From: Bacteroidota bacterium
GTDB taxonomy: Bacteria > Bacteroidota > Ignavibacteria > Ignavibacteriales > Melioribacteraceae
DNA: 64,000 bases
NCBI GenBank assembly: GCA_018829205.1
Contig: JAHJUE010000022.1
Coordinates: 62,001 to 126,000 of the forward strand
Direction: 5' to 3'
Shown: one piece after another, positions 33,796 to 64,000 of the stretch
Layout of the letters: every line of letters begins with the position of its first letter
Numbering within the stretch: the stretch's first letter is position 1
Position numbers and translations under genes: made by a program
The notes under the pieces: model-generated
Database searches by the model: none
What the model saw: only the letters and a program-made list of their open reading frames with translations
What the model was told of the DNA's origin: nothing

Positions 33796-34662
33796 TTACG
33801 GTATAATTGATGTTCTATATTTATTTCTAAAATCCCCGGGTGAGGAATTAAATTTTTTTTTGAAGATATGATAAAAGTGACTGAGGTTTTCAAAACCCGC
33901 TTCCATCGAAATGAAAGGAATATTTTCATCAGTGTTCGTTAAAAGGTTTGCAGCGTAATTAAGTCTCTGGTCATTTATAAATTCCGTCGGTGTTAACTCA
34001 AAATGTTTTTTAAATTCCCTGCACACATGTTCTTTGGATTTGTTTGAGATTCTCTGCATCTCGGAAAATCCTTTAATAAAATTTTCTTTTTTCAGCATCT
34101 CTTCTCTTAAAGTGGAAAGCCACCGCGGCACGTTTGTTTTTTCATCGTTGTAATTTGAGGAAAAATATTTTATAAATATTTCTAAAAGAAGAATCCGCAG
34201 TTTTGTATTTATCTCTTGTTTGCTATCGCGGTTTATTAAATTTAAGTCCTCCATCCTTTTTATGATTATCCCGGTTTCAACATTTGATAATTTTACGGAA
34301 TGCGGCATGCCATTTTCTAAAAGACTTTTTCTATTAAATCCTTCGCCCAAATAATTAAATAGTTCCTTTATTGTTTTCTGCGGGAAGGCGATGTTTATCA
34401 GTTCGCAGTTTTCATCTTTATATTTTTTGTAATGATGAACATCTGAAGGTCTAATGAACACAAGCGTTCCTTCTTCAAGAAGCTGCTTGTTGTCGTTTAT
34501 ATTATGTACAACCTTTCCCTTTGTGATCAAAAAGATTTCATAAAAATTATGCGTGTGTTCAATTGTAATGTCGTTTAACGATTTATGCCACGCGAAATGA
34601 ACCTCGGTAAAAGGATCAATAATTTTTTCTGAATAGATTTTTAAGTGTGAACGGTCTTTCAT
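33796..34662 (-). CDS. AraC-family transcriptional regulator
   Basis: This is a 288-residue regulator with an N-terminal cupin-like ligand domain (about 15-110: TEVHFAWHKSLNDITIEHTH, HNFYEIFLITKG) and a C-terminal pair of helix-turn-helix motifs (about 185-283; KEHVCREFKKHFELTPTEFI, then GFENLSHFYHIFKKKFNSSP). The cupin domain suggests sugar binding. It is transcribed divergently from the glycyl radical enzyme across 112 bp and upstream of the aldo/keto reductase, so it probably controls both directions. ATG 34662 is the natural start. Confidence 0.9.
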   Translation of the reverse strand: MKDRSHLKIYSEKIIDPFTEVHFAWHKSLNDITIEHTHNFYEIFLITKGKVVHNINDNKQLLEEGTLVFIRPSDVHHYKKYKDENCELINIAFPQKTIKELFNYLGEGFNRKSLLENGMPHSVKLSNVETGIIIKRMEDLNLINRDSKQEINTKLRILLLEIFIKYFSSNYNDEKTNVPRWLSTLREEMLKKENFIKGFSEMQRISNKSKEHVCREFKKHFELTPTEFINDQRLNYAANLLTNTDENIPFISMEAGFENLSHFYHIFKKKFNSSPGDFRNKYRTSIIP

Positions 34663-37006: not shown

Positions 37007-37008
37007 AA

Positions 37009-37926
37009 ATGAATGCAACAGACACTAACGGTTTAGTTTTTGATATACAAAGATTCTCACTTCACGACGGGCCGGGAATACGCACTACTATATTTTTAAA
37101 AGGCTGCCCGCTTAATTGCGCATGGTGCCACAACCCGGAAGCAAAACCTTATAAACAGCAGTTATCTTTTAACGAAAACTTATGTACTTCATGCATGGAA
37201 TGTGTAAAAGTCTGTAATAATACTGTTCATTCTTTTGTTAACGGTAAACACAATGTTAATTTTGACGCATGTGAATTAAGCGGAAAATGTGTTGAAGTAT
37301 GTCCAAGCGAAGCGCTACAAATTATCGGCAAAGAATATTCTACTAATGAAATTATTAATATCGTTTTAAGAGATAAAAAATATTTTGAAAACTCAAACGG
37401 CGGTTTAACAATTTCCGGCGGAGAACCTCTCGCTCAATTTAAATTCACAAAAAGTTTATTGATGAAAGCCAAAGATGCTGGACTTCATACTGCAATTGAA
37501 ACCTGCGGCTTTGCTAAAGAACAACAGTATCTTGATATACTTCCCTATGTTGATTTATTTTTATATGATATTAAAGCGGCGGAAGATAAAAAGCATATTG
37601 AATTTACAGGAGCTTCGAACAAATTAATTTTACTTAATCTTGATCTGCTTTCGAACAACGGAGCGAATATAATCTTACGCTGCCCTTTAATTCCGGGAGT
37701 TAATGATTCAGAAGAGCATTTAAGTTTTATTGCTGGTCTGAATAAGAAATATCAAAACATCTTAAAAGTTGAAGTGATGGCGTTTCATAATATCGGCAGG
37801 GACAAATCAAAAAACATAGGTGTTGAATACAAATTCAACGACAAACCGAACGCCGACGAAAATACAAAAAGAATGTGGATTGCAAAATTGGAAGACTACG
37901 GCTGCACAAATATCTCAATCGGGTAA
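37009..37926 (+). CDS. Glycyl radical enzyme activating protein (radical SAM)
   Basis: This 305-residue enzyme installs the glycyl radical on its partner using S-adenosylmethionine and a [4Fe-4S] cluster. The radical SAM motif CX3CX2C is CPLNCAWC (Cys33, Cys37, Cys40), preceded by HDGPGIRTTIFLKG. An auxiliary ferredoxin-like insert (about 58-105; CTSCMECVKVC, then CELSGKCVEVCPSEA) is typical of dehydratase activators and absent from the pyruvate formate-lyase activator. TISGGEPL follows. It begins two bases after the enzyme's stop codon, so the pair is an operon. Its stop lies one base from the stop of a convergent oxidoreductase gene, with no terminator between. Confidence 0.93.
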   Translation: MNATDTNGLVFDIQRFSLHDGPGIRTTIFLKGCPLNCAWCHNPEAKPYKQQLSFNENLCTSCMECVKVCNNTVHSFVNGKHNVNFDACELSGKCVEVCPSEALQIIGKEYSTNEIINIVLRDKKYFENSNGGLTISGGEPLAQFKFTKSLLMKAKDAGLHTAIETCGFAKEQQYLDILPYVDLFLYDIKAAEDKKHIEFTGASNKLILLNLDLLSNNGANIILRCPLIPGVNDSEEHLSFIAGLNKKYQNILKVEVMAFHNIGRDKSKNIGVEYKFNDKPNADENTKRMWIAKLEDYGCTNISIG

Positions 37927-44529: not shown

Positions 44530-45411
44530 TTATTTGAAAACCGACAAATATTCTTCGAAGAATTTTTCTCTGTTCACATCAACAGCAACTTCATGCTTCT
44601 TAATTTCACTTTTGGGGAACCAATGTGTTAGTCCTCTTTCTTTTTCCTTTTCAAGCTCAATTGTTACAAGACCTTTTTCAAATTTGCAAATCGAATCGTT
44701 AAAGATTAAGGCTGCGGCGAGAGGATCGTGGAAAGTAATTACATCCCATTCTTCAAACCAAATTTTTGAAAAATCCAGTACAGGCATTAATAATTTATGA
44801 TTACAGATTTTCTTGAACTCGTTTGAATCCATCGTAACCCTTGAAGAAATATCAATCCCGATTGATTTATGAAAAGGAACATTTGCGCGGTAAACAATTT
44901 CTGTCGCGTGGTAGTCACCCATGGCGTTCCATTCAACATTGCTATATGCCGGTGCGTTTAAGTCAAACTTGCCAGCCATAGTAACGAGTCCTTTTAACAG
45001 AGAAGGAATTTCATGATCAATTGAAAAAAGAACAGCGATATTTGTAAGAGGTCCGATAGTAAGCAGCACTATTTCGTCGGGATTTTCGCGGATAATTCTT
45101 CGCATAAAATTAATAGCTTCATATTTTGGGAAAACTTTTTCATGAGACCATTTATTAAGCGCTTTTGCCTGTTGTGCTTTTTTCTGAAGCTGTTCTATAA
45201 TTAAAGGGTTTTCTATTCCCGGATAAATAGGAATATTTTTACCTGATATTTTGCAAAGTGAACTAGCAAGCATAGCTCGTTTATCTGATTCGCCTGTTAC
45301 CGTTGTTATACCTACTAACTCGCAGTTTGGGTTTGCTAAAAGATACGCGAGACAGATGGCGTCGTCAACATCTGTCCCTATATCCGTATCAAGTAATATT
45401 TTTGTTTTCAC
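44530..45411 (-). CDS. Inosine-uridine-preferring nucleoside hydrolase family protein
   Basis: This 293-residue enzyme of the nucleoside hydrolase family cleaves N-ribosyl bonds with a bound calcium. The calcium-binding motif DTDIGTDVDDA is at residues 7-17, and LTIGPLTNIA and FHDPLAAAL carry further conserved sites. The start is GTG 45411. It sits in the sugar operon between the binding protein and the dioxygenase gene, an odd place for a nucleoside salvage enzyme. It may release ribose or another sugar from an imported nucleoside-like compound; the substrate is unknown. Confidence 0.85.
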   Translation of the reverse strand: MKTKILLDTDIGTDVDDAICLAYLLANPNCELVGITTVTGESDKRAMLASSLCKISGKNIPIYPGIENPLIIEQLQKKAQQAKALNKWSHEKVFPKYEAINFMRRIIRENPDEIVLLTIGPLTNIAVLFSIDHEIPSLLKGLVTMAGKFDLNAPAYSNVEWNAMGDYHATEIVYRANVPFHKSIGIDISSRVTMDSNEFKKICNHKLLMPVLDFSKIWFEEWDVITFHDPLAAALIFNDSICKFEKGLVTIELEKEKERGLTHWFPKSEIKKHEVAVDVNREKFFEEYLSVFK

Positions 45412-45456
45412 AAAGTCTCTCGCCTTAATTTCAAAATGAGAAATCTCAAATCATAT

Positions 45457-46209
45457 TTATTTTACCCGTACACCGTTTTTCAAGAAAGGCTCATCCAAAC
45501 CTTTTAAACTTCCATCTAATTCATAAATAATTTCCGGAGAATATTGTATTGCCCAGGCCCTTCTCATTTTACTGGTTTGATTAGGACCCGACCTGTGAAA
45601 AGCTGTACTTGAAAAAACAGCAATCGATCCCGCCTTTGCAACAACAGGAACGCCTTTTTCATTTCCGAAATACCCGACTCTATCACTAGAACCTTCCATT
45701 AGTTTATGTTCAATTTTATCTTTTGTCCCTGCTAAACCGTAAGGCAGTAAATAAACAGTTCCGTTTTCTTCGCTTACGTCGTCAAGAGGTATCCAGCAGT
45801 TTACATAAGGTTTATGCGGACCGTCAACATAACCGGAATCTTGGTGCCAGTTAAACTCGGCTCCTTTAGGATCTGTACCCTTCACAACAAATTGTTCCCA
45901 GAATAGATAGGAGTCGTTGCCTATTGTTGCTTTACATAACGATTCCATTAAATCACTAAAAATAAATTCTCCTAATTGTTTTCTTTCCTTGTATGCAAGA
46001 AATACAAAGTAACGGCTGTTTCTTCTGCTTAGGTTGAGTACATCAACTCCCTGTTTATCCATTTCTTTATTTTGAAGATCGATTAAAAGATCACATTCTT
46101 TTCTGAGTGACTGTAATAATTCATCTTGAATAGCGTTTTCTATTATAAAAAAGCCATCTGTATTATATTTTTCAACTTGTTCTTTAGTGACATTTAATTT
46201 TTCTAACAT
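45457..46209 (-). CDS. Phytanoyl-CoA dioxygenase (PhyH)-family Fe(II)/2-oxoglutarate oxygenase
   Basis: This is a protein of about 250 residues. Iron ligands fit His and Asp in NWHQDSGYVDG and the distal His in STAFHRSGPN. The 2-oxoglutarate-binding Arg probably lies in MRRAWAIQYSP. AAGGAGGACAAT directly precedes ATG 46209, and an in-frame start 15 bases upstream is weaker. Members of the family hydroxylate diverse substrates, so the one here is unknown. An oxygen-requiring enzyme in an operon next to an oxygen-sensitive glycyl radical locus is notable. Confidence 0.85.
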   Translation of the reverse strand: MLEKLNVTKEQVEKYNTDGFFIIENAIQDELLQSLRKECDLLIDLQNKEMDKQGVDVLNLSRRNSRYFVFLAYKERKQLGEFIFSDLMESLCKATIGNDSYLFWEQFVVKGTDPKGAEFNWHQDSGYVDGPHKPYVNCWIPLDDVSEENGTVYLLPYGLAGTKDKIEHKLMEGSSDRVGYFGNEKGVPVVAKAGSIAVFSSTAFHRSGPNQTSKMRRAWAIQYSPEIIYELDGSLKGLDEPFLKNGVRVK

Positions 46210-46246
46210 ATTGTCCTCCTTCATAAATTGTTAGGAGAAATTAGGA

Positions 46247-47374: not shown

Positions 47375-48928
47375 TTAGGAATACAATTTATTTTCAATAT
47401 TAGTTATATCAGTAAAAGCTGATTTTAATGATTCATATAAGGATTTATATACTTCATAATAATCTTTATAAATTAATGTATCATTATAATTGGGAATAAC
47501 CGTTTCCAATTCCTTAATTGAAACAGAACATGCCTCTGAAATATCACTAAAATGGTTTGTCCCAACTGCTGCAAGTAAAGCGGCGCCAAAAGGTGCTGTA
47601 TCTACAGTTGAAAGCGATACAATTTCTTTATTTAGAATATTTGCAATAATCTGCTGCCATAATTTACTTTTAGCACCACCTCCGGAAATTCTTACTTTAT
47701 CTGTTCGAACTCCTATCGCTTCATGAAGAATAAAACAATCTTTCAATGAGTAACCTACTCCTTCCAGAATTGACCTGGAAAAATGATTGATATTATGCTT
47801 CACTGTTAAACCTGTAAAAGTTCCCTTTGCATTTGGATCAGGATAGGGTGTTCTTTCTCCGGTTAGGTATGGCAGAAATATCAAACCATTTGAGCCTGGT
47901 TTGATTTCAGAAGCCTTATTTGTAATAACCTCATATAAATTATGGTTGTTTATTTCATAATTTTTTGTTTCAAAATGGAAAACATTTTCCTTAAACCATT
48001 TTAGTGAACCTGCTGCAGATAATGTTACACCCATTACATGCCACGAATTATTAACGGCGTGACAAAACGAGTGCACTCTCCCGTACGTATCATAAGTATA
48101 TTTATCAGTGCATGAAAATACAACACCCGATGTTCCCAAAACAATTGAAGTAACTCCATTTTTAATAGTTCCAGTACCTATTCCTCCTGCTGCTTGATCA
48201 CCAGCTCCTGCAACAACAGGAATACCTGCCTCTAAACCTATAAGCTCACCTGCTTCTTTATTTACTTTAGCAACAACTTCTTGGGATTCAAAAACATCCG
48301 GCAGCCATTTTTTATCAATATTCATTAAATCTATAATTTCATTAGACCACTTTCTTTCTTTAACATTAAATAAAGATGTTCCTGAAGCGTCAGATACATC
48401 GATGCCAATTTCTCCGGTTAGCCGAAATCTTATATAATCTTTCGGTAATAATACGTGCCTTACTTTATCATATATTTCCGGTTCATTTTTTTTAACCCAT
48501 AATAATTTAGGTGCTGTAAAACCAGTCAAAACTTTGTTACCAGTTATACTTATTAATTTTGCCGTTCCAATTCTTTCGTTCATTTCTTTGCATTCATTAG
48601 CTGTTCTTTGGTCATTCCACATTATACAAGGACGCAACACTTTTTTATTTACATCTAAGATAACTAATCCGTGCATCTGGCCTGTTAGTCCAATCCCAAA
48701 AACATTTTCAGCACTGATATCAGAATCTTTCATTAATCTTGACAGGCAAATGACAGTCGCGTTCCACCAATCTTCTGGGTCCTGTTCGCTCCATTGCGGT
48801 TTTAGATTTGATGTTAAATATTCTTCGTATGATGTAAGAACAATATTGCCAATACTATCAATCAACAGTGCTTTTGTACCTGATGTACCTATATCAATTC
48901 CTATGAAATACTTATTTGGACTTTTCAT
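47375..48928 (-). CDS. xylB: FGGY-family carbohydrate kinase, xylulokinase-like
   Basis: This protein of about 517 residues phosphorylates D-xylulose or a related ketose with ATP. The N-terminal domain opens with FIGIDIGTSGTKALLID. MHGLVILD and the catalytic Asp in VVAGAGDQAAGGIGTG follow, and then the second ATP-binding segment RISGGGAKSKLWQQI. ATG 48928 has AAGGATAAAG upstream and lies four bases after the flavodoxin gene; an upstream start would overlap that gene. The overall sequence best fits the xylulokinase branch. Together with the GH10-like proteins it supports pentose catabolism. Confidence 0.85.
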   Translation of the reverse strand: MKSPNKYFIGIDIGTSGTKALLIDSIGNIVLTSYEEYLTSNLKPQWSEQDPEDWWNATVICLSRLMKDSDISAENVFGIGLTGQMHGLVILDVNKKVLRPCIMWNDQRTANECKEMNERIGTAKLISITGNKVLTGFTAPKLLWVKKNEPEIYDKVRHVLLPKDYIRFRLTGEIGIDVSDASGTSLFNVKERKWSNEIIDLMNIDKKWLPDVFESQEVVAKVNKEAGELIGLEAGIPVVAGAGDQAAGGIGTGTIKNGVTSIVLGTSGVVFSCTDKYTYDTYGRVHSFCHAVNNSWHVMGVTLSAAGSLKWFKENVFHFETKNYEINNHNLYEVITNKASEIKPGSNGLIFLPYLTGERTPYPDPNAKGTFTGLTVKHNINHFSRSILEGVGYSLKDCFILHEAIGVRTDKVRISGGGAKSKLWQQIIANILNKEIVSLSTVDTAPFGAALLAAVGTNHFSDISEACSVSIKELETVIPNYNDTLIYKDYYEVYKSLYESLKSAFTDITNIENKLYS

Positions 48929-48932
48929 TTCT

Positions 48933-49436
48933 TTATCCTTTATACATTGAAACCCAATGTGATAACTTTTTACCAAGTTTTATGCAGGCGTCAATTTCTT
49001 TTTGTTCTCTCGGTTCCCCTGCAGTAACTGCACCGTAATGAAGCGTAAATTTATCAGCCACATAATCTGTTACTCCGAAAACCAGGAACCCGTAATTCAT
49101 TAATACAGTAAGAATTGACATACAAGTGATCTCAGCTCCTCCGCCCCAACCGCCTGAAGATGAAAAAGCGCAACCGATTTTACCGTCTATTTTACCCCAG
49201 CACTCGTCTCCAATTTCATCCCAAAATTTTTTCATCTTCCAAGAGATTATTCCCATTTGTGTGGGTGTGCCTACGGAAATACCGTCGCACCAATTAATAT
49301 CCTCTGCCGAGGCTTGATCAACATGAAGAATTTTTACTGTCGAATTTTCATTTTCTTCTGCGCCTAGTTTTACATATTCAGCCATTTTCTTTGTATTGCC
49401 TGAATTAGAATCGTATAAAATTAATATGTTTCTCAT
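48933..49436 (-). CDS. Flavodoxin-fold NAD(P)H:quinone oxidoreductase-like protein
   Basis: This 167-residue WrbA-like flavoprotein has the FMN phosphate loop YDSNSGNTKKM at the N-terminus and SSSGGWGGGAEITCMSILTV carrying the isoalloxazine contact. It reduces quinones or acts as a small FMN carrier. Its start overlaps the end of the aldo/keto reductase gene by four bases. Its role in a sugar operon is unclear, but a redox partner for the adjacent oxidoreductases is conceivable. Confidence 0.83.
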   Translation of the reverse strand: MRNILILYDSNSGNTKKMAEYVKLGAEENENSTVKILHVDQASAEDINWCDGISVGTPTQMGIISWKMKKFWDEIGDECWGKIDGKIGCAFSSSGGWGGGAEITCMSILTVLMNYGFLVFGVTDYVADKFTLHYGAVTAGEPREQKEIDACIKLGKKLSHWVSMYKG

Positions 49437-52310: not shown

Positions 52311-55007
52311 TTAATTCTTACTTAAAAAAGTAAGAGTAGGTTTACATTCTTCACTCTTTATATATTTTATCAACTCAGTAAACAAAGTTTTTGTATATGG
52401 GTCTTCAGTTTTCTTAAAGAAATCAAAAGTTGTTAAGATTAATTTCCCGTTTCCTATTTTTATTTCTATTAAGTAAGCCGAATTCATATGCAGCCAGCCG
52501 ATAAACATTCCTGATAAAACATTATCAAAGTATTCCGCGTTAATTCCCGTTAAAACATATTTTGGGAAAACATCGTATGCTTCAAAACCCATGGTATTTC
52601 CGAGATTAATATTTTTAAACGGGCTTTTGGAGTTATCAACCCAGCTCAGTGCCGACGCCCAGTTTCCGTCGAGCCATTCGGAATTTCTCGATTTTATCTC
52701 AATTGGAATTTCATCAGTAAGTACGGTGTTGCTGTCAATTATACAAATTGCATTAGCACCGTTTCTAATTTTACTTAATAGAAGCGAATCAATGGATTGG
52801 GAAATTATAACATCATTATTTTCACCTTCTGCAATTTTGCCAATTTTATAAGTACCAGGGAAAATATAAACTTCAGTAAAGTTTTCAGACAAAACTATAC
52901 TGTCCTTTTCAAGAGTGAATTCAATTTTTAGTTTTCGCGGAATATTTGTTTCGCCCACATTTATTTTTATTTCTGCCGCTTTCTGTACATCTGCGTTTTT
53001 TATACTAGTTAACTTTATTGAGTTTTCATAACCGTCGGAAGTTTTATATTTCAACAAAGAGTTCGATAAATTTTCCCCGCTGAAATTGGAAATTGATATT
53101 TCTACCACAGCAGTATCCTTTTCCCAATAATTATATTTTTCTGTTCTTGGTATTATTATATCGGGCTGCTGAATTTTGTTTAATTTTTTTGAACCGTATT
53201 TATAATTCCGCCACATATCCAGCAGACCATTTACTTCCCAGTTTATATCGGTAAATTCCGTTATAACATAACCTTGAATATCTTTAGCAAGTCTGATTTC
53301 TTCTATTTGCCATTTTAATGCATTATACTGGGCTATCTGACTTGCTCCAGCTAATTCATTATATGATTTAAATATGCGGTTCAGTTTATATTTGTTGAAT
53401 CTTTCATAAACACCTTTAGGCATTGATACATCAATATCAATAAATTGCCTGTCAAACCAGAACGGAAGAGCATCAGGAAGAATCGGCAAGCCCCAATTTC
53501 CAAATTCAGATATCATTATAACTTCGTCGCCGGTTTGATGTGAGTCTCCGAAATTACTGAACAGCCAATCAGGTCTATTTGCAACATCCTTAATCGTATT
53601 TGAAAAATTTATTTTATTTTCCGGAATAGCCCAATAAGTGTGATAGTCATTTATATCAGTTTTGAGATGAAAGTTGCCCCAGCATGCGCTGTTATCAACT
53701 ATTAATCTTCCCGCCGCTTTCTCTTTAGCATAATCAAATTCATTTATTAGCCACTCTCTTTGTTCTTTTTGATTTAAATCGATTCCCCAGCTTTCATTAA
53801 TAATACTAATTACACATAAAGACGGATGGTTCCAATCCCTTTCAAGCATACGATCAAATGTAGATCTTGCTCTTGATTTAACGCTCTCATCAAAGAAATC
53901 CCAATTTGGTATTTCATACCAAACCAGTATACCAAGTTCATCGGCAAGTTTTAAATAATTTTTATCCGGAATTTTTATGTGACACCGCAAAGTATTTAAT
54001 CCCATTTCTTTCGCTTTAATAATTTCATCACGTAAATATTCTTCCGAAGGTGTTGTATAAATTGTTTCGGGATAAAAGTCCTGGTCGAGCGCGGAAATCA
54101 TATAAAAAGGTTTCCCGTTCAAATAAAATTTTCCGTTCTCTTTTTTAAATTCTCTAAAACCGTATTTGTCTTCGTACGTTTCACCATTATAATTTATTTT
54201 TATAGTGTAAAGATTCGGACTTTTTAATTCCCACAATTGCGGTTTTAATATTTCACCGGAAATAATTTCAGTTATACTATCTGCTTCTTTATTAAATTGA
54301 AAAACTTCTTTTCCTTCCGGCGAATAAATTTTCAACTCAAAATATTCTTTCTGTGAAACGTCATTAAAATCAAAATCTATTTTTGCTTCAAATTTCCCGC
54401 TGATATCTGAGTTTATTTTTACTGTCTTAATAAAATTGATCGGTTTAATTTTTAAAAATACATCCTGCCAGATTCCGCTGCACTGAACATACCAGCTTTG
54501 TTTACCGTGGGGTATATGCCAGTAACGAATTCCGTCGGTTCTTTGCTCTTCAGCAGTCGGGTCATTAACCCTTACTAATATTTTGTTATCTCCTTCTTTC
54601 AAAGCTTCTGTAATATCAAATGAGAAAGGTGTATACCCGCCTTCATTTTCTCCAATAAATTTATTGTTTATATAAACTTTTGATAAATAATCAACCGCTT
54701 CAAACTCAAGAATATATCTTTTACCTGTTTCAATTTTAGTAATTGTTAATACTTTTCTGTACCAGGCAATACCCTGGTAATCGAGGAATCCTTCGTTTAC
54801 TATATGCCATGTTGAAGGTACGGTAATGCTTTGCCAACCTATTTTTTCATCGACATCATTATTAGTGAATTCATTAAGGGTATCTTTCAGTATTTCCCAT
54901 TCACCGTTAAGATTCATTACTTGAGCATTTACAAATTGTTTTGTCATAGTCAGCAAAATTAAACTCATTAAAAATATTTTTGGGATATTTAGCGAAGTTT
55001 TATTCAT
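52311..55007 (-). CDS. Secreted GH2 glycoside hydrolase
   Basis: This protein of 898 residues has a GH2 layout: jelly-roll domain (about 30-200), immunoglobulin-like domain (200-290), and TIM barrel (from about 295) with acid/base Glu405 in IINESWG and nucleophile Glu501 in ISEFGNWG. These two sites mark beta-galactosidase, beta-mannosidase or beta-glucuronidase-type enzymes. ATG 55007 begins MNKTSLNIPKIFLMSLILLT, a signal peptide ending near ANAQ-like FVNAQ. The C-terminal 250 residues are a further beta-rich region. The ATG shares one base with the stop of the preceding gene. Sugar specificity is not decided. Confidence 0.87.
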   Translation of the reverse strand: MNKTSLNIPKIFLMSLILLTMTKQFVNAQVMNLNGEWEILKDTLNEFTNNDVDEKIGWQSITVPSTWHIVNEGFLDYQGIAWYRKVLTITKIETGKRYILEFEAVDYLSKVYINNKFIGENEGGYTPFSFDITEALKEGDNKILVRVNDPTAEEQRTDGIRYWHIPHGKQSWYVQCSGIWQDVFLKIKPINFIKTVKINSDISGKFEAKIDFDFNDVSQKEYFELKIYSPEGKEVFQFNKEADSITEIISGEILKPQLWELKSPNLYTIKINYNGETYEDKYGFREFKKENGKFYLNGKPFYMISALDQDFYPETIYTTPSEEYLRDEIIKAKEMGLNTLRCHIKIPDKNYLKLADELGILVWYEIPNWDFFDESVKSRARSTFDRMLERDWNHPSLCVISIINESWGIDLNQKEQREWLINEFDYAKEKAAGRLIVDNSACWGNFHLKTDINDYHTYWAIPENKINFSNTIKDVANRPDWLFSNFGDSHQTGDEVIMISEFGNWGLPILPDALPFWFDRQFIDIDVSMPKGVYERFNKYKLNRIFKSYNELAGASQIAQYNALKWQIEEIRLAKDIQGYVITEFTDINWEVNGLLDMWRNYKYGSKKLNKIQQPDIIIPRTEKYNYWEKDTAVVEISISNFSGENLSNSLLKYKTSDGYENSIKLTSIKNADVQKAAEIKINVGETNIPRKLKIEFTLEKDSIVLSENFTEVYIFPGTYKIGKIAEGENNDVIISQSIDSLLLSKIRNGANAICIIDSNTVLTDEIPIEIKSRNSEWLDGNWASALSWVDNSKSPFKNINLGNTMGFEAYDVFPKYVLTGINAEYFDNVLSGMFIGWLHMNSAYLIEIKIGNGKLILTTFDFFKKTEDPYTKTLFTELIKYIKSEECKPTLTFLSKN

Positions 55008-56047
55008 TATATAATTCCGGTTTTGAATTGACTGAATTTTGTTTTCCATTTATTTATAAATTCAACTTCATCTTTTCTGAAATTATATCCAACCGAATCA
55101 CCTTTGAACTCATTTATATACCAGTCTATAGTTGAAGGCATCCATTCATTAAAAGGTGTTGATGTAAAATTTATATCCTTTTTAATTTTTTCTGTACTAA
55201 AAATCGCGGTTGTGTATGTGTTAAATGGAAACGCGTGCCCTCCGTTAATAATACTGTACGGCAGTTTTTCAAATACCTCGATATCTATGTTTATTCTTTC
55301 GGGATTTTTGTTCAGCAATTTGCAGAGACTGTCGAGATAATCATTCAATGAAAATATCTCTTCAGCCGCGACGTTATATGCTTGTCCGATTGTTTTTTCG
55401 GTTTTAATTATATCAACAAATGCTTTTGCCAAATCATTGACGTAAACATGGTGGGATGCATAGTCACCAGAGCCGGGTATAAGTAAAGGATTGCCGTCGA
55501 GTATTCTTTGAATCCAAAAGTAATCTCGTATAGCTGGATCGTGGGGTCCGCAAACATACGGCGGACGAATTATTGTTACCGGAAAATTATTATTATTGTG
55601 GGCATTCCACAAAACATCTTCACATTTTCTTTTATCAATTCCGTATTGCATACCAAAAGGATTTCTTCCCCAGAATTCCATTAAGCATCCTTTATCTTGG
55701 TCTTCGGTAATCGGGCATTGAAATTCTTTTGAAACCATATAAACCGAAACAGTGCTTGTGTGAATAAACCTTTTGGTTTTCCCGTAAAACACTTCGGCCA
55801 TTAAAGCCGATTCATCTTCAGTAAAGGCTGCAAAATCATAAACAACATCAAAATTATAAGATGCAGCTTCGATCATCTTACTTTTATTGTGTCGATCTGC
55901 GTTTATAAATTTTAAATTATTATTTTGCGCTGAACGGTTTTCAGTTTTACCTCTGTTAAAAATTGTTACTTCATGTCCTTCATTCAGAAGCATTTCAACA
56001 ACATATGAACTTATAAAACCTGTTCCGCCGATTACTAAAATTTTCAT
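55007..56047 (-). CDS. NAD-dependent epimerase/dehydratase (extended SDR)
   Basis: This is a 346-residue nucleotide-sugar-type epimerase/dehydratase. The NAD-binding motif GGTGFISSYVVE is at the N-terminus, and the catalytic Tyr-Lys pair is in FGMQYGIDKRKC. HTSTVSVY supplies the Ser/Thr. It acts on a sugar, or a sugar-nucleotide, in the cytoplasm. The stop TAA overlaps the start of the GH2 gene by one base (TAATG). The substrate is unknown. Confidence 0.85.
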   Translation of the reverse strand: MKILVIGGTGFISSYVVEMLLNEGHEVTIFNRGKTENRSAQNNNLKFINADRHNKSKMIEAASYNFDVVYDFAAFTEDESALMAEVFYGKTKRFIHTSTVSVYMVSKEFQCPITEDQDKGCLMEFWGRNPFGMQYGIDKRKCEDVLWNAHNNNNFPVTIIRPPYVCGPHDPAIRDYFWIQRILDGNPLLIPGSGDYASHHVYVNDLAKAFVDIIKTEKTIGQAYNVAAEEIFSLNDYLDSLCKLLNKNPERINIDIEVFEKLPYSIINGGHAFPFNTYTTAIFSTEKIKKDINFTSTPFNEWMPSTIDWYINEFKGDSVGYNFRKDEVEFINKWKTKFSQFKTGII

Positions 56048-56110: not shown

Positions 56111-58447
56111 TTATTTTACTAGTATCATTTTTTTTGTGATTACTTTGTTTCCGAATTCAATTCTGTAAAAATAAATCCCGCTTGCCAGCTGTGAGGCGTT
56201 GAATTCGGTATAATGAATTCCCGCATTTTCAAATTTATTTACAAGAGTTTGAACTTCGCGTCCAAGCAGATCATAAATTTTTAATTTCACATTCCCGGCT
56301 TCGGGTAAAACAAACTTAATTATTGTCGAAGGATTAAACGGGTTAGGATAGTTTTGGGCAATTTCCAACTCAGTCGGTAAGGTTTCTTCTAAATTATGAA
56401 TTCCCACAACAGTATCAATAGAATCTGCCAGATGCAGAATTCTTGTTATATAACCTTGAATCGGAATTGTTAAGCTTGTTAAATCATTTACCGTTGCAGT
56501 AAATGATTCTCCGCTCATTAAATCGGTTAAATAATATTGTGTATCGGGATTTAAATTTAATTCATCAACTGGAAAAGAAAGCTTAACATTTGCTGGATTC
56601 TTTCCCATATTAATTACAGTGAACAAATTTTGATTTTCATTCCATCTTCTGAAGGCAAAACATGTATTGCTGCCCGATAAATTCACTTCATTAAAATTTT
56701 CTGTAATTAGTGCCGGAAAATCTTTTCTTATCTCAATTAATCTTTTATAATAATTGAATAACCCGTATTGACTTTGCCCTTCAATTGATATACCCGGGAT
56801 AAAAGTTCTCTCAGTACTGTATGGATGCCCCGACAATCCTGTTTCCTGCCCGTTATATATAAGAGGAATTCCGTTCAGTGAGAACATTAAAGATGCCGCC
56901 ATTTTTGTCTGCTCAACACTATGGTGAGTTATAAAATGGAATACATCATTGTTTTCCATAAATCTCAATATTTTTGCGTTGGGCACATAACCGCTGCCGA
57001 AATTTGATAATGAATTTCTAAGCATTCCCGGTCTGCTGCTTTCGCTTCCTTGATTAAAAATAGTAGGATTAGAATTTTCACTATAAAAAGTATTCCAAAC
57101 CCAATGAGAGACCCATGATTCTTCAGGCGCCCAATCATAAGCTGCGTCAAAGCGTTCATCGAAAGTTTCGGGCCACGTTGCTTTGTCTTCAGCCAATAGA
57201 AAGACATCCGGCTTTATTCTTTTTAATGCAAGCCTTAGTTGTTTTGTAAATTCAGGCGCTCTTGCCGTTACGCCCCATATCGCGTCAAATCGATATCCGT
57301 CAATATTATAATTATCAATCCAGTATTTCGCGGCTTCTATCATCCAGTTCCATACTTCCGGATTATCGTAATTAAACATTATTAGATCCGTCCAGAAATA
57401 ATAATAGAAACCGCGCGAATTTTTATTATAGTGTTGAGAATAAGGAGCATTGTCGTCGATGTGTTTATAAAAATTATAATAATGGGAATCTTCGCCGTAT
57501 TGAATAGCATCTTTATAATAAGGGTGCTGGAATGAAGAATGATTAGCAACAAAATCAAACAGAACCCTCATACCAAGCGATTTGGCAGTTGAGATTAATT
57601 CACTTAATTCTTGTTCAGTACCAAGATCATTCCGCAAGTTAAAATAGTTTGTAATATCGTAACCTTGTCCACCTCCGTAAGTACTAAATACGGGTTGAAT
57701 CCAAATAGTATTTATACCCATTCTACTTAATTCAGGCAGTTTATTTTTAATATTTACGTATTGATTAAAAAACGAAAAGGTATAAGGCGTTATACAGTAT
57801 ACAACGGCGCTGTCAATCCACGCTGCGTAATCTGTTTTAATATTAAAAGGAACTATAGTTGAATCTTTATAGGTAAAATATGTTCTAGCTTTTGAAGTAT
57901 CATTGTCAGCATCAACAACAAATAAATCGAAATAATATTCACCTTTCATCAACTCGGCATTATAAATAACTGAAGTATACGGGGAGGAATGATCAGCTAT
58001 TTCTCCAATAACGGGATTTTTTTCATCTTGACGCCAATAATACGTTAAAATATTTGACTCAGGATTTGAAACTATATCTGAATGAAGAACAATACTTGCA
58101 GCTTCCGCCGTAATGTATGCATAAACTTCAGGTATAATTTTAAAATTAACTGTCAACAACAAGGTGTCTGACACAACAACACCTGATGAATCATTAATTA
58201 CGGCATATATTTCATTAACGCCTTCGCCTAAATTTATTACTACCGAAAACGAATTTGATTCTACACTAAAAATATTCGGCTGAGAGTTTACATAAAGAAT
58301 TCCATTCGATGCTGTAAAGTCAACTTCTCCATTAATAACTTGTGTGCGTGACCAAACGACAGCATTCTTTTTTTTAAGCTTAACTTCAGAAGCATAAATG
58401 TTTAGAGTTAAAAAAAACAATAAAAATAATTGATAACAAAAGCGCAT
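56111..58447 (-). CDS. Secreted GH13 alpha-amylase with T9SS sorting domain
   Basis: This 778-residue protein starts MRFCYQLFLLFFLTLNIYAS, a signal peptide. Beta-sandwich repeats (about 20-195) precede a GH13 barrel with all four regions: DFVANH (I), DGYRFDAIWG (II, nucleophile Asp), LLAEDKA (III, Glu) and MENNDVFH (IV, Asp). The C-terminal about 90 residues hold IAQNYPNPFNPSTIIKF and LGREVQTLVN, then GIYFYRI: the type A sorting domain that sends proteins through type IX secretion to the cell surface. It is the clearest lineage marker in the window. It acts on alpha-glucans such as starch or glycogen. Confidence 0.92.
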   Translation of the reverse strand: MRFCYQLFLLFFLTLNIYASEVKLKKKNAVVWSRTQVINGEVDFTASNGILYVNSQPNIFSVESNSFSVVINLGEGVNEIYAVINDSSGVVVSDTLLLTVNFKIIPEVYAYITAEAASIVLHSDIVSNPESNILTYYWRQDEKNPVIGEIADHSSPYTSVIYNAELMKGEYYFDLFVVDADNDTSKARTYFTYKDSTIVPFNIKTDYAAWIDSAVVYCITPYTFSFFNQYVNIKNKLPELSRMGINTIWIQPVFSTYGGGQGYDITNYFNLRNDLGTEQELSELISTAKSLGMRVLFDFVANHSSFQHPYYKDAIQYGEDSHYYNFYKHIDDNAPYSQHYNKNSRGFYYYFWTDLIMFNYDNPEVWNWMIEAAKYWIDNYNIDGYRFDAIWGVTARAPEFTKQLRLALKRIKPDVFLLAEDKATWPETFDERFDAAYDWAPEESWVSHWVWNTFYSENSNPTIFNQGSESSRPGMLRNSLSNFGSGYVPNAKILRFMENNDVFHFITHHSVEQTKMAASLMFSLNGIPLIYNGQETGLSGHPYSTERTFIPGISIEGQSQYGLFNYYKRLIEIRKDFPALITENFNEVNLSGSNTCFAFRRWNENQNLFTVINMGKNPANVKLSFPVDELNLNPDTQYYLTDLMSGESFTATVNDLTSLTIPIQGYITRILHLADSIDTVVGIHNLEETLPTELEIAQNYPNPFNPSTIIKFVLPEAGNVKLKIYDLLGREVQTLVNKFENAGIHYTEFNASQLASGIYFYRIEFGNKVITKKMILVK

Positions 58448-58456
58448 TAAAAACTC

Positions 58457-60106
58457 CTAACTTTTTTGACCGGGCAAATGATTCCAGCTTTTTAATAATT
58501 CTTGCAATCTGTAATATGAACGTTTAGGAGTTGCGTCTTCTCTAACTAATCCACCGTTTCTTATAAACGGCCTGAAGTCTGAGAAATCATACCAATTAAT
58601 TGCTTTGATATTTTGTCTTGAATAGTACAAAGTAAAAACTTCTTCGAGCCAATCGGCTTGAAGTTCTTCGTCCCATCTGCGGTGCCAATCGTAAGGCGCA
58701 TCTTCGATATCAGCTTGATCTAATTTTATTGATTGTTCATCATAACCAGCCGAGGCACCAATTTCAGTTATATAAATTGGTTTATTGAATTTTTCAAATG
58801 ATTCTAATTTTCTTACAATATCCGATAGATCACGGTATGGGAAGTAAATTTGAACACCGAGAATATCAAATTCTACTCCTGCCTCAACTAAATCCTCAAT
58901 AAATTTTCTTGGTGAGCGTAAAGGTCTGCCAGCTTGTTCTTTTTGTCTTGCGAATCTTCCTCGAGCGGCGTATTCTGCCCAAGGACAGCAGTTATTAATT
59001 AATCTTTTGACGTTAGGATTAGTTTCTTTTGTTGTGTTAAGAGCTAATCTCGCAATCTCAGTAATTTGGTCTTCGGTATGATTGTGAACGTTTGCCCAAT
59101 CATGATGTTCATTTATAACTTCCCAAGAAGATATTTTATCGCCGTAATGTGATACCAGATCCTGCGTGTGTTTTTTAACATAATCTTTCACTTGTGAATA
59201 GTTTTTATCCTTGAGCCAATCGGGTGTAACAACAGGATGAAACCAGAATAGTGGTCTTCCTTCAATTTGAATATTATTATCGGAAAGCCAGTTAACTATA
59301 TTATCCTTTATCCCCCAATTATAAACTCCTTCTCTTGGTTCAAAAACTTCGTACCATGTATCCCAAACATAATGTGTAATAGTAGCAAAGTTAAAAAGTT
59401 CAACAAAACGTTTCGTCATATCTTCCGACTTAGCCCAAATATATTGGCGGGTTTCGCATCCGAAATGAACTTGTTCCTTTCTTTTGTATTTTAGGATATT
59501 AAACTTTGCAAATTCGAGTTCAATTTTTTCTCCGGCCCATAAAGCGTACATCAAACAATTATTTGAAATCTCTCCGCATTTATTGCCATTATTAATATTT
59601 TTTGTTGCATCTTCAAAAAGATTTTCAGAAAGGTCGGAAAGATAATTAACTTCAGCAGAAAATATAATACCGCTTTTCTGATATCGTTTTTTAACATTGC
59701 TGTTTCTAGTTATTCTGCTCTTTGCGAATTCATAATTTAAATTCAAAGACTTAGAAAAATCCTTATGTGTATAAAATTCTCCTCCATTATCGGCAGATAA
59801 ATAAATATATCCGAATCCTTCAATAAACCATCTAGTGTTAACAGAAAATTTCTTGCTGCCTAGATTATCCGGAATATTAATTCCGTCGCTATTTACGGTA
59901 ACATCAGAATAAAACGGATCATCGCTTTCATCCGCGAGATAAACAAAATTTATAGGAGGCATCCATTTATGAGGATAAGGTATAAATGTCATTCCCCTGT
60001 TAGTTTTAGCGTAAATGTTAGATACGTTTGTAATAAAGGGTGAAACACCCAAAGCGCCGGATGCGATCACTGTGGATTTAAGAAAATTTCTTCTGGAATA
60101 ACTCAT
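58457..60106 (-). CDS. Tat-exported GH10-like protein, copy 1
   Basis: This is a 549-residue protein. MSYSRRNFLKSTVIASGALG is a twin-arginine signal; ATG 60106 is preceded by AAGGAGAATGT. A domain of about 180 residues (about 45-225; TRWFIEGFGYIYLSADNGGE) is not a GH family I know. The GH10-like barrel follows, with acid/base Glu333 in SWEVINEHH and nucleophile Glu448 in YITEIGASAG. Canonical GH10 residues are altered: GHTLVWH-type motif is GRPLFWFH, and the glutamine-histidine of the GLQSH motif is GVQIYF. Activity on a xylan-like chain is possible but not secure. Confidence 0.82.
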   Translation of the reverse strand: MSYSRRNFLKSTVIASGALGVSPFITNVSNIYAKTNRGMTFIPYPHKWMPPINFVYLADESDDPFYSDVTVNSDGINIPDNLGSKKFSVNTRWFIEGFGYIYLSADNGGEFYTHKDFSKSLNLNYEFAKSRITRNSNVKKRYQKSGIIFSAEVNYLSDLSENLFEDATKNINNGNKCGEISNNCLMYALWAGEKIELEFAKFNILKYKRKEQVHFGCETRQYIWAKSEDMTKRFVELFNFATITHYVWDTWYEVFEPREGVYNWGIKDNIVNWLSDNNIQIEGRPLFWFHPVVTPDWLKDKNYSQVKDYVKKHTQDLVSHYGDKISSWEVINEHHDWANVHNHTEDQITEIARLALNTTKETNPNVKRLINNCCPWAEYAARGRFARQKEQAGRPLRSPRKFIEDLVEAGVEFDILGVQIYFPYRDLSDIVRKLESFEKFNKPIYITEIGASAGYDEQSIKLDQADIEDAPYDWHRRWDEELQADWLEEVFTLYYSRQNIKAINWYDFSDFRPFIRNGGLVREDATPKRSYYRLQELLKSWNHLPGQKS

Positions 60107-60120
60107 ACATTCTCCTTTTG

Positions 60121-61665
60121 TTATTTCAATTTTTTCCATTCGTTTTGGAGTTTCAATAATCTATCAACGGCTGCTTTTTTTTCACCTTTGTCTGAACGAA
60201 GAAGCCCTCCGCTTTTTAAGAAAGTCATTGGATCTACAAAGTCATACCAGTTAGCTGCTTCAATAAACGGTTGACTGTAACCATAAGTAAAAACATATTC
60301 CAGCCAGTCGGCCTGCAGTTCTTCGTCCCAGTGTCTTCTCCATTCATAAGGATGTTTTGAGAAATCTTCTGTTTCTTTATCTACAAACTCCTGAGTAATT
60401 CCCCGTGACGGAGAACCGATTTCAGCAAGCTGGACTCTTTTATTAAAAACTTTATATCGTTCGATTGCCTGTAAAGCCTCGGTTAAAGTTCTATGGACAA
60501 AATAGACCTGCATGCCAATGATATCAAAATTTACTCCCGCGTCAACTAACTGCTTGGTAAACTGATGTGGTGTACGTTGAGGATAAAGAGCGGGTCTATC
60601 GCCCCATTTACCCAGTTGAACATAATCTGCAAACGGGCAGCAATTATTAACAAGAAGCTGGACTTTGGGATTTGTATCTTTCGCAACTTCGCATGCAAAT
60701 TTAGTTAATTCAATTGTCTGTTCTTGATTTAACTCTACTTCATTTGCCCAATCGTGCATTTCGTTTACAATTTCCCAGGTCAATATTCTATCACCGTAAT
60801 GCGATATAACTTCACGAACATGTTTCTCAACATATTTTTTCAACTCATCATAGTTTTTCTTTTTAAGCCAGTCCGGGCTTACCCAAAAGTGGCTCCAAAA
60901 TAAAGGTCGGCCTTCAACTTTTATATTCCTTTTCAACAATTCATCTAAAAGTTTATCACGTTCAGAAAATTGTTTTTTCCCTTCTACCGGTTCAAAGTTT
61001 ATTACATCACCGATTAAATAATGTGTGATGGTGGAGTAATTGAACAATTCGGTAAAACGCTCAAGAAACAAATTACTATCCATTTGAAAATATCCGCGCG
61101 CGTCGCAGCCGAACAAAAAATCTTTCCTATAGCCGTTCTTCAAAACGTCATGTTTAGATTTTTCAATTTCCAATTGCTCGCTTGCAATCACTGCATGTTT
61201 TAATCCTGTTTGTGAATATTGCGCACAGATCTCATTGTCACTTTTATAATTATCAGCCGAACTTAAATATTCATCGCCAAGTTGAAGCAAATGATTTAGC
61301 TCTACAGAAGGTTTCCACCCGTCGGATCTAAACTTATTTAATCTTTTCCTGTTTCTTTCAACTCTGGTTTTCAACAATTCATAATTAAGATTAAAAATCA
61401 GTTCTTTGTTTTTTTCAATTTCATAAAATTCTCCGGCGTTGTCGCAAGGCATATAAAGAAAACCGTAACCTTCAACATTCCATCTGACGCTTATGCCGAA
61501 TTTATTTCCCTTAGTATCGGAAATCTTTATTCCAACATTGGTCAAAATTATATCTGATTTGAACGGATCACCGTTGATATCAAAAGATAAAAATTTATCT
61601 ATTATATGCGGTCCTCGCCCCTTCTGTACAAAATATGGCTTGAAAATAATTTCACCGGCTGCCAT
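60121..61665 (-). CDS. GH10-like protein without signal peptide, copy 2
   Basis: This 514-residue paralog begins MAAGEIIFKPYFVQKGRGPH at the point where copy 3 has its mature chain, so the signal peptide has been lost or the protein works in the cytoplasm. The same N-terminal domain (RWNVEGYGFLYMPCDNAGEF) and GH10-like barrel are present, with acid/base Glu302 in WEIVNEMHD and nucleophile Glu415 in QLAEIGSPS. AAGGGATATT precedes ATG 61665. There is a 14-bp gap to copy 1. It could act on an imported oligosaccharide. Confidence 0.8.
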   Translation of the reverse strand: MAAGEIIFKPYFVQKGRGPHIIDKFLSFDINGDPFKSDIILTNVGIKISDTKGNKFGISVRWNVEGYGFLYMPCDNAGEFYEIEKNKELIFNLNYELLKTRVERNRKRLNKFRSDGWKPSVELNHLLQLGDEYLSSADNYKSDNEICAQYSQTGLKHAVIASEQLEIEKSKHDVLKNGYRKDFLFGCDARGYFQMDSNLFLERFTELFNYSTITHYLIGDVINFEPVEGKKQFSERDKLLDELLKRNIKVEGRPLFWSHFWVSPDWLKKKNYDELKKYVEKHVREVISHYGDRILTWEIVNEMHDWANEVELNQEQTIELTKFACEVAKDTNPKVQLLVNNCCPFADYVQLGKWGDRPALYPQRTPHQFTKQLVDAGVNFDIIGMQVYFVHRTLTEALQAIERYKVFNKRVQLAEIGSPSRGITQEFVDKETEDFSKHPYEWRRHWDEELQADWLEYVFTYGYSQPFIEAANWYDFVDPMTFLKSGGLLRSDKGEKKAAVDRLLKLQNEWKKLK

Positions 61666-61687
61666 AATAATATCCCTTAATTATTAT

Positions 61688-63400
61688 TTAATGTTTAGCG
61701 GCTTCACGCCACATTGTTTTAAGTTGTTTTAACTTGTGATAAGCAAATTTCTTTTCGCCTTTTGTGTTAGCAAGAACTCCGCCGTTTTTTATAAATGAAT
61801 ATGGATCAACAAAATCATACCAATTGATCGCTTCGATCCAGGGTTTACTGTAATGAAGTGTGTAAATTTTTTCAAGCCAGTCAGCTTGCAGATCTTCATC
61901 CCAATGGCGGTGCCAGGTATAAGGCATTTCCGGTAAAGTTAATTCGCCGTTGTTTATGGTATCTTTTGACGGACCTGATGTTGTACCAATTTCAGTAACT
62001 TGAACTGGTTTTCCGTAACGCGTTAATCTTTCCATCATCCTAATTGTATCCGCTAAGTCGCGGTTAGTATATTGATAATATAATTGCTGTCCTGTAATTG
62101 TAAAATCAACTCCTGCTTCGTAGCACATTTTTATAAATTGGTGCGGCGTGATTAAAGGGAACTTTTTATCGAACTCATCCCAATTAATTATTTGAACATA
62201 ATCGGCCTGAAGACAGCAGTTGTTAATTAAGCGGTGTACATTAGGATTTGTATCTTTTGAAGTTTCAGCAATCAACTTTGCGATTTCAACCATTTGATCC
62301 GGGACAAGTTTTAATGCGTTCCCGAAATCGTGAGCCTCATTAATGATTTCCCACCCGTACATATCTGTGCCGTAATGCGAAACAACTTCACGCGTATGTT
62401 TTTCAACATACTTTAATAAATCCGGATAACTTTTATTAATTAGCCATTCCGGCGAACAGCATTCATCGGCCCAGAATATCGGCCTTCCTTCAACAGTAAC
62501 CCCGCGCTTTTTAAGTTCTCTTAGTTGTTCGTCGCGGTCTAGATATGTATACTTTCCTTCTTCTTTTTCAAAGCGGGGTAAATAGTGAGTTATAGTCGCA
62601 TAATTAAATACATCGGAAAACAAATCCATAAAAAGACTTTTCTCCATATGAGGATAACCTTTTGTATCGCATCCTATAAAAAAATTATCTCGGTATTTCA
62701 TTTGCGAAATATCAAACCATGCTTTATCAAGCTCCAGCATTTCGCCTCCCCACATTGCGTAGTACAATGCTTTTTGCGAAAGTTTTCCTCTCTTTAATTC
62801 ATCAGTTTCAATTTTATTGGATTCATAAATAAACTCATCACTTAAATCAAGAAATGTTTTTACTTCTTTATTGGGAAGATAATTCTCTTTTGAAAACTTT
62901 TTCAGCCTGTTATTGTTTGCTATAACTCTAGATTTGGCTAGTTCAAAATTCAGGTTTAAAGTTTTTTCATTTCCGATTTTAGGAAGCTCATAAAATTCTC
63001 CGCCGTTATCTGCGGTCATATAAATGTAACCGAATCCTTCAACATTCCATCGTACATTAATTCCAAATTTGTCCTTGCCTTCTGCGTCGGAAATAGTTAC
63101 TCCGTTGTTGTCCACCCAAATATTGGAATGAAAAGCGTCCCAATCATTATCGCTTGCAAAGGCCCAGCTCGGGAAATCCCATTCATGTGGTCCCATACTT
63201 TTTAAAGATTTTATACTTCCTAGATGTGGCCCTTTTCCTGTCTGCACTATATACGGCTTAAAAATTAATTTTCCTTTTTCAGTATTCATCATTGTTTTAT
63301 TTTTGGTTATAATTTCGGGTGCAGAAAACAATTGACTTGTCAATAACGTAGCTCCCAATCCAGCTACGGATGATTTTTTTAAGAATTCTCTTCTTTCCAT
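61688..63400 (-). CDS. Tat-exported GH10-like protein, copy 3
   Basis: This 570-residue paralog begins MERREFLKKSSVAGLGATLL, a twin-arginine signal. An extra 50-residue insertion (about 60-95) precedes the shared domain RWNVEGFGYIYMTADNGGE. In the barrel, acid/base Glu355 is in YGWEIINEAHD and nucleophile Glu470 is in VQVTEIGTTSG. The subsite changes are the same as in copy 1: GRPIFWADECC in place of the GHTLVWH motif, and ITGQQLYYQY in place of the GLQSH motif. The conserved LINNCC phrase replaces the usual NDYN loop. It is 22 bp upstream of copy 2. Confidence 0.82.
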   Translation of the reverse strand: MERREFLKKSSVAGLGATLLTSQLFSAPEIITKNKTMMNTEKGKLIFKPYIVQTGKGPHLGSIKSLKSMGPHEWDFPSWAFASDNDWDAFHSNIWVDNNGVTISDAEGKDKFGINVRWNVEGFGYIYMTADNGGEFYELPKIGNEKTLNLNFELAKSRVIANNNRLKKFSKENYLPNKEVKTFLDLSDEFIYESNKIETDELKRGKLSQKALYYAMWGGEMLELDKAWFDISQMKYRDNFFIGCDTKGYPHMEKSLFMDLFSDVFNYATITHYLPRFEKEEGKYTYLDRDEQLRELKKRGVTVEGRPIFWADECCSPEWLINKSYPDLLKYVEKHTREVVSHYGTDMYGWEIINEAHDFGNALKLVPDQMVEIAKLIAETSKDTNPNVHRLINNCCLQADYVQIINWDEFDKKFPLITPHQFIKMCYEAGVDFTITGQQLYYQYTNRDLADTIRMMERLTRYGKPVQVTEIGTTSGPSKDTINNGELTLPEMPYTWHRHWDEDLQADWLEKIYTLHYSKPWIEAINWYDFVDPYSFIKNGGVLANTKGEKKFAYHKLKQLKTMWREAAKH

Positions 63401-63417
63401 TCTTCTACTCTGTTTAG

Positions 63418-64000
63418 TTAGAGTGATTTAAATTTATTTTGAAGATTTATTAATCTTTCATATGCTGCTTTCTTTTCGCCTTTAGGAGATTCCAACAACC
63501 CTCCTCCTTTAATCCATGAATAAGGATCGACGAAATCATACCAATTAACAGCTTCAATCCAAGGTTTGCTGTAGGCTAATGTATATAATCCTTCTAACCA
63601 GTCAGCTTGAAGTTCCTGATCCCAAGGTCTATGCCAAATATATGGTTCTGTTTCAATACCAAGTCTGCCTGAATTTATAGAATCTTTAGTAGGACCCGAA
63701 GAGGCGCCGACTTCGGTTAATTGGACAGGTCTTCCAAACTGTTCATGACGTTCAACCAGCATTATTGTGTCTTGAAGATCACGATACGGGAAATACATTT
63801 GCTGTCCGGTAATTGTAAAATCAACACCGGCATCATTTAATTCCTTCATAAATTTTACGGGAGTTCTTTGCGGATAAGTGGCGTCAAGTTCGCCCCATTT
63901 TTTCAACTGAACATATTCTGCAAAAGGACAACAATTATTTATCAATCTATGAACTTTTGGATTTATTGATTTAGCGACATCACAAGCCAGTTTTGCAACT
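63418..64000 (-). CDS. GH10-like protein, copy 4 (C-terminal part; cut by window edge)
   Basis: Only the C-terminal about 194 codons are in the window; the frame stays open to base 64000, and the start and acid/base residue lie to the right. The visible part has LINNCCPFAEY, FTITGQQMYFPYRDL and nucleophile Glu in VQLTEVGASSG, so it is the same family as the three copies downstream. The end TEPYIWHRPWDQELQADWLE resembles the others closely, suggesting recent tandem duplication. Confidence 0.8.
   Translation of the reverse strand, partial: VAKLACDVAKSINPKVHRLINNCCPFAEYVQLKKWGELDATYPQRTPVKFMKELNDAGVDFTITGQQMYFPYRDLQDTIMLVERHEQFGRPVQLTEVGASSGPTKDSINSGRLGIETEPYIWHRPWDQELQADWLEGLYTLAYSKPWIEAVNWYDFVDPYSWIKGGGLLESPKGEKKAAYERLINLQNKFKSL

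Follow-up and report, generated by a model that had tools for sequence, protein, structure and literature searches.

The GH10-like gene array

The window considered here is a stretch of 64,000 nucleotides (G000:C15:62001-126000) within a 4.59-Mb assembly of a bacterium of deep-branching, mostly uncultured lineages (Ignavibacteria), and the minus strand of positions 58457-64000 carries a tandem array of genes for proteins resembling glycoside hydrolase family 10 (GH10) enzymes. Open reading frame (ORF) calls give three complete genes, named X1, X2, and X3, while a fourth, X4, is represented only by its 3' portion (Table 1). A previous sequence-only reading of this DNA had proposed at least four tandem copies; the tandem arrangement is confirmed, but the true count is five, with X5 lying beyond the window end. 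Searching the whole genome with Pfam PF00331 returned five matches, all inside this one array, with scores of 47.9-81.3 bits for X1-X5 against a curated cut-off of 22.1, and the same search found no canonical GH10 in the genome. The array genes are spaced by 11, 17, and 22 bp, and X2 and X1 overlap by 19 bp. A GH13 gene begins 9 bp downstream of X1 and a major facilitator superfamily (MFS) transporter gene ends 13 bp ahead of X5; because of these short distances the array and its flanking genes look like one operon.

Fold and domain architecture

The AlphaFold2 model built from an alignment of 83 family sequences (predicted local distance difference test score, pLDDT, 91.7; predicted template modeling score, pTM, 0.88) consists of a disordered leader, a beta module (approximately residues 44-133), long helices (134-217), and a barrel (219-553). 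Membership in GH10 is indicated by PF00331 scores above the cut-off, the (beta/alpha)8 barrel topology, and two catalytic glutamates, one in an Asn-Glu pair on beta4 and one in a TE pair on beta7. The best structural match in the PDB is AcXyn10A (8B73), with a Z score of 30.3 over 300 residues, a root mean square deviation of 2.8 Å, and 23% identity. The top 50 matches (Z 27.6-30.3) are all GH10 enzymes or Kemp eliminases on a GH10 scaffold, and no other clan GH-A family such as GH5, GH39, or GH51 appeared among the best PDB matches listed, although being missing from such a list does not by itself rule a family out.

The N-terminal module (residues 40-218) had no sequence match in Pfam or the PDB, and is kept in all paralogues with a mean between-group identity of 46.8% for the beta part, compared with 48% for the barrel. 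Within the barrel, the beta5 and beta7 loops are longer, the latter carrying an invariant WHRxW motif, and group-specific beta2, beta3, and beta8 loops are visible in the alignment. With a strict threshold, only three specificity-determining positions were recovered; no significant enrichment in the beta-to-alpha loops was seen for them or for the invariant positions (p 0.60 and 0.068, respectively), so that any claim of divergent subsites rests on the visible loop differences and not on statistics.

Active-site residues

Residues of the family are numbered according to X4, and conservation was counted over the 83-sequence alignment. Profile-profile alignment with canonical GH10s (probability 99.5%), together with PDB profile and structure-chain alignments, identified the array residues opposite the GH10 motifs ENxxK, GHTLVWH, QSH, and NDYN. 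In Cex-type GH10s, subsites -1 and -2 owe their form to the two histidines and to the residues of ENxxK. The acid/base E343, the nucleophile E456, and N342 preceding the acid/base are invariant (83/83), and so the proposal that both catalytic glutamates are kept is borne out. Both -1 histidines considered a hallmark of GH10 xylanases are replaced in every sequence, that of beta3 (GHTLVWH) by R294 and that of beta6 (QSH) by Y429, each in 83/83. Further invariant positions are H345-D346 following the acid/base, N381, W482 and W486 after the nucleophile, and D515, while the beta8 Trp is retained in essentially all members.

The remaining motif changes named in the sequence-only reading hold to different degrees. 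Replacement of QSH by Q-x-Y is found throughout, and that of NDYN by NNCC nearly so (C383 in 82/83, with NNC standing for the GH10 NDY). The change from GHTLVWH to GRPxFW is accurate for the arginine, but X5 reads GRLLYW. The -2 hallmark ENxxK is missing from the family, which has TH or TF/TY instead; TH itself has exceptions, as X5 has ITF (not ITH) and some X3 and X4 sequences have Tyr for His. The statement that the changes are the same in all copies is therefore correct for the Arg and the Tyr, but has exceptions in its wording of TH and GRPxFW. On this mapping, the distinguishing mark of the array is the putative -1 pair, Arg and Tyr. A lone GH10 homologue outside the array clade (L085:1268-2323, genome G439) has GRSLVW at beta3 and Q-V-N at beta6; because it has the GR and no beta6 His, the array is not alone in being altered at these two positions.

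Phylogeny, distribution, and selection

One scan of genome contigs gave 27 array loci, nearly all with several adjacent copies and, contig breaks aside, one site per genome. The tree of 86 copies has five clades, each spread across several lineages (labeled in the records as Ignavibacteriota, KSB1, Fidelibacterota/Neomarinimicrobiota, Kryptoniota, and others), with X3 the narrowest. The gene order X5-X4-X3-X2-X1 is found in six of the eight five-copy loci, X3 being displaced in L015 and L026, and loci with fewer than five copies retain the same relative order. The array is rare, occurring in 9 of 58 close relatives, 6 of 395 genomes of its own phylum, and 6 of 199 genomes in the Neomarinimicrobiota sample; one metagenome-assembled genome labeled Melioribacter roseus also carries it (L008). 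X4 is 70-73% identical to its KSB1 and Neomarinimicrobiota orthologues, compared with 45-57% to the paralogues in its own genome, and this high similarity across phyla suggests that the block may have moved horizontally between them.

A barrel tree that included canonical GH10s from related genomes places all array proteins in a single clade (support 100/100) whose stem measures 1.39. Its nearest characterized neighbor is AcXyn10A (96/80), a tentative placement given the long branches. Over 245 genomes of the class, array members score 44-85 bits with PF00331 and other GH10s approximately 106-351 bits, the lowest of these being contig-edge fragments. Contig-end fragments aside, no intermediates were found between array members and the other GH10s, which reached no more than 56 bits, among 395 genomes of the same phylum, 82 of the KSB1 phylum, and 199 of the Neomarinimicrobiota phylum. 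For each of the five groups, the ratio of nonsynonymous to synonymous substitution rates (dN/dS) falls in the range 0.03-0.09 wherever dS is unsaturated. Decay was considered and rejected on the basis of this ratio and the family-wide conservation, which likewise place the pocket changes far from chance. The earlier view that the changes mark a subfamily rather than decay is thus upheld by the single clade, the five ancient orthologous groups, the strong purifying selection, and the invariant catalytic residues. Membership in a characterized GH10 subfamily with known xylanase activity, which would have spoken against that view, was looked for and not found, and a search of the available literature found neither a described non-xylanase GH10 subfamily nor a report of such an array. 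The array proteins are well supported as a new conserved GH10 subfamily.

Signals and compartments

Twin-arginine translocation (Tat) motifs were found in 19/19 X1, 9/9 X3, 14/23 X4, and 12/15 X5 sequences, but in 0/17 X2 sequences, with orthologue starts taken as annotated. Most of the X4 and X5 sequences without the motif have short or truncated N-termini resembling start-choice problems, while X2 begins directly at the beta module and has no leader in any of its 17 orthologues. No type IX secretion system (T9SS) tail is present on any array copy. Judging from these signals, the usual pattern would be four exported enzymes and one cytoplasmic enzyme, X2.

Relationship to characterized xylanases

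AcXyn10A is an endo-beta-1,4-xylanase of Acetivibrio clariflavus (PMC12485897). Like the array proteins, it has the GH10 barrel, the catalytic Glu pair, a beta7 loop of similar length, and a WWDFVD-like beta8 motif, and it lacks ENxxK; unlike them, this proven xylanase has His at beta3 (GH), QSH at beta6, and ND at beta5. The N-terminal module of the array has no match in AcXyn10A, and the two share only the low identity given above. The canonical GH10s of related genomes, including Mros2091 of M. roseus, also share the fold and catalytic residues, but those of the related genomes keep ND or NE at beta5 and, in nearly all cases compared, both the beta3 and beta6 histidines. The GH10 part of NF041944, a bifunctional endo-1,4-beta-xylanase/feruloyl esterase model, matches four of the five array proteins (best E 1.7e-9), but the one score seen was 20.4 bits against a cut-off of 1200 bits, and no esterase domain was found in the array proteins. 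The Pm25 cluster and CjXyn10C resemble the array in the loss of the -2 Glu, by description only, but have Gly in its place and are still xylanases (PMC7848910).

Seven of the 245 class genomes have the array, and two of these (G031 and G550) also have a canonical GH10, compared with 32 of the 238 others; from these frequencies, the two do not travel together. In G031 the array is on contig C14 and the canonical GH10s are on C16 and C56. Mros2091 belongs to a separate cluster for xylan, in which its neighbors are beta-xylosidases and an arabinofuranosidase (PMC3534657).

Proposed function and alternatives

The array is probably made up of five paralogous retaining beta-glycosidases of an uncharacterized GH10 subfamily, which would act on one shared -1 sugar, probably not in plain xylan, and would differ in aglycone subsites and compartment. 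Retaining beta-glycosidase activity is predicted because the catalytic machinery is conserved and the chemistry of GH10 is established; all five would use the classic two-step double displacement, and the single glycan whose -1 sugar they would share is probably something other than plain beta-1,4-xylan. X1-X5 would differ in the aglycone and neighboring subsites through their beta2, beta3, and beta8 loops. Following Tat export, X1, X3, X4, and X5 would act in the periplasm, and X2 would act in the cytoplasm on imported oligosaccharides. Uptake and processing of the products would fall to the MFS transporter, GH42-like enzyme, sugar isomerase, and Gfo/Idh dehydrogenase encoded in the operon. 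Specificity for something besides plain xylan is likely from the predicted pocket, and a non-xylan substrate fits because both -1 histidines are replaced, because GH43, GH51, GH67, and GH115 debranching families were not seen among the annotated operon neighbors (no genome-wide search for them was made), and because the array and canonical GH10s occur independently. Chances are about even for a more detailed version, in which a GH10 subfamily with a substrate not recorded for the family would comprise five enzymes for different linkages or decorations of one glycan, four Tat-exported and one cytoplasmic, encoded in an operon that would have passed from phylum to phylum while mostly keeping its set of paralogues together.

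Several points weigh against this explanation. A -1 sugar common to all five would be argued from invariance only, and the replaced residues are assigned to -1 and -2 on the basis of known GH10 structures and sequence mapping; a literature search found no paper stating the role of each GH10 -1 residue. Loss of the -2 Glu is by itself weak evidence, because the characterized xylanases Pm25 and CjXyn10C also lack it (PMC7848910) and AcXyn10A lacks ENxxK. The negative for debranching families covers annotated neighbors, not whole genomes, and the GH42-like, GH13, GH2, and GH92 neighbors converge on no one named glycan.

It is possible, though rather unlikely, that the proteins are not endo-acting depolymerases but glycosidases with exo or disaccharide-specific action on oligosaccharides or natural-product glycosides. 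In that case the long beta7 loop (invariant WHRxW) and the extended NNCC loop would close off the pocket. The extra length of the beta5 and beta7 loops, the invariant W482 and W486, the periplasmic and cytoplasmic placement without any T9SS tail, and the exo-type neighbor families GH42, GH2, GH92, and GH106 are consistent with such action, but a beta7 loop of about equal length is also present in AcXyn10A, a proven endo-xylanase. This is partly compatible with the explanation preferred here, which allows either endo or exo action.

Ordinary but divergent beta-1,4-xylanases, able to work on xylan or xylo-oligosaccharides in spite of the altered pocket, are improbable. The best match by both sequence and structure, AcXyn10A, is itself a proven xylanase (PMC12485897) and has no ENxxK, the -2 Glu is also missing from other known xylanases (PMC7848910), and some 10 kb downstream there is a gene for a predicted FGGY-type sugar kinase (window 47375-48976). 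However, the two -1 histidines that AcXyn10A and nearly all same-lineage canonical GH10s keep are invariantly replaced, the debranching families are missing from the annotated operon neighbors, and canonical GH10s are located elsewhere in genomes having both, as in G031.

Transglycosylases or non-hydrolyzing binding proteins are very unlikely. Some GH10s do have transglycosylase activity, and strongly conserved tandem paralogues would suit binding proteins as well, but binding-only homologues usually lose such residues as the catalytic pair, the Asn ahead of the acid/base, and the beta8 Trp, which essentially all 83 members still have. Redundant recent duplication for gene dosage would account for the tandem arrangement, but has almost no probability given that X4 is closer to its orthologues in other phyla than to its own paralogues, and it is contradicted by the five multi-lineage clades.

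GH10 counts as a xylanase family, and the five array proteins would be annotated as xylanases. If the invariant replacements at -1 do signify a different sugar, the carbohydrate profiles drawn from Ignavibacteria, KSB1, and Neomarinimicrobiota genomes give a wrong picture of the diet of these bacteria. Five conserved paralogues per operon would also be a natural series for aglycone specificity splitting after duplication with a fixed -1 pocket, and the array poses a further question in having one member in the predicted cytoplasmic compartment and the others on the Tat route.

Neighboring genes

Across phyla, the shared order of partners is a PF04115 (ureidoglycolate-lyase-like) protein, DUF6259, Gfo/Idh/MocA, an AP_endonuc_2 TIM-barrel isomerase, the GH42-like protein, the MFS transporter, the array, sometimes URO-D, and then GH13, an epimerase, and GH2. 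The Gfo/Idh/MocA partner is levoglucosan-dehydrogenase-like, scoring 192 bits against 650 required. Some loci carry PIG-L, GH92, nucleoside hydrolase, or ATP-binding cassette (ABC) solute-binding genes ahead of the array. In the genome studied, the cluster extends upstream to GH106-like, ribokinase, RbsD, and TonB receptor genes, and downstream to GH92, lactonase, dehydrogenase, FGGY kinase, and ABC genes.

Table 1. Array genes, active-site codons, and downstream partners (window positions unless locus L006 is given)
Feature	Position	Strand	Description and evidence
X1 (gene 5 in transcription order)	58457..60139	-	Tat signal SRRNFLK, N-terminal beta module and helical region, GH10-like barrel; ORF, PF00331 80.4 bits, tree
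X2 (gene 4)	60121..61665	-	No signal peptide, predicted cytoplasmic; ORF, PF00331 66.5 bits
X3 (gene 3)	61688..63400	-	Tat signal MERREFLKK; ORF, PF00331 54.1 bits
X4 (gene 2)	63418..64000 (3' part only); complete at L006:10419-12080	-	553 aa; ORF, genome-wide GH10 matches
X5 (gene 1)	L006:12092-13768 (past window end, 11 bp upstream of X4)		558 aa; ORF, genome-wide GH10 matches
X1 acid/base Glu344	59108..59110	-	X2 E302 60760-60762; X3 E355 62336-62338; invariant 83/83
X1 nucleophile Glu459	58763..58765	-	X2 E415 60421-60423; X3 E470 61991-61993; X4 63712-63714; invariant 83/83
X1 Arg295, for GH10 beta3 His	59255..59257	-	X2 R253 60907-60909; X3 R306 62483-62485; invariant 83/83; alignment to GH10
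X1 Tyr432, for GH10 beta6 His (QSH)	58844..58846	-	X2 Y388 60502-60504; X3 Y441 62078-62080; X4 63793-63795; invariant 83/83; alignment to GH10
GH13 alpha-amylase-family protein	56111..58447	-	T9SS C-terminal sorting tail; PF00128 138.7 bits, PF18962; partner in 18/28 loci examined
NAD-dependent epimerase/dehydratase	55007..56047	-	PF01370; partner in 17 loci
GH2 family protein	52311..55049	-	PF02837/PF00703; partner in 11 loci

Naming a single substrate from operon content was attempted and abandoned, as no one glycan fits the combination of GH13, GH42-like, GH2, GH92, GH106-like, nucleoside hydrolase, ribokinase/RbsD, Gfo/Idh, and PIG-L genes. An Asn before the acid/base Glu is near-universal in clan GH-A. 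The GH42-like partner (L006:15046-17187 and 15 further loci) has Ser at this position before the presumed acid/base Glu (WNV[GA]SEPE) in all 16 readable copies, and by its sequence is a second operon enzyme with a putatively altered -1 site. A nucleoside hydrolase gene (PF01156) adjoins a PhyH dioxygenase gene in the sugar cluster at window 44530-46224, and the ribokinase and RbsD genes are upstream of the array at L082:7471-8816; together, these hint at use of ribose or ribosides. The URO-D-family gene (PF01208) is present in 11 loci (for example, L031:3785-4933), often directly after the array, and is absent from the genome studied. Elsewhere in the window, a glycyl radical enzyme (PFL-like) gene on the plus strand is followed by a probable activase gene (34775-37926), with an AraC-type regulator beside it on the opposite strand (33796-34662). 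From their translations, the genes at 4050-30504 are dense in histidine kinases, response regulators, and chemotaxis-type proteins (CheA/CheB/CheR/CheD/CheW-like), and include a methyl-accepting protein and a 2290-aa multi-PAS kinase.

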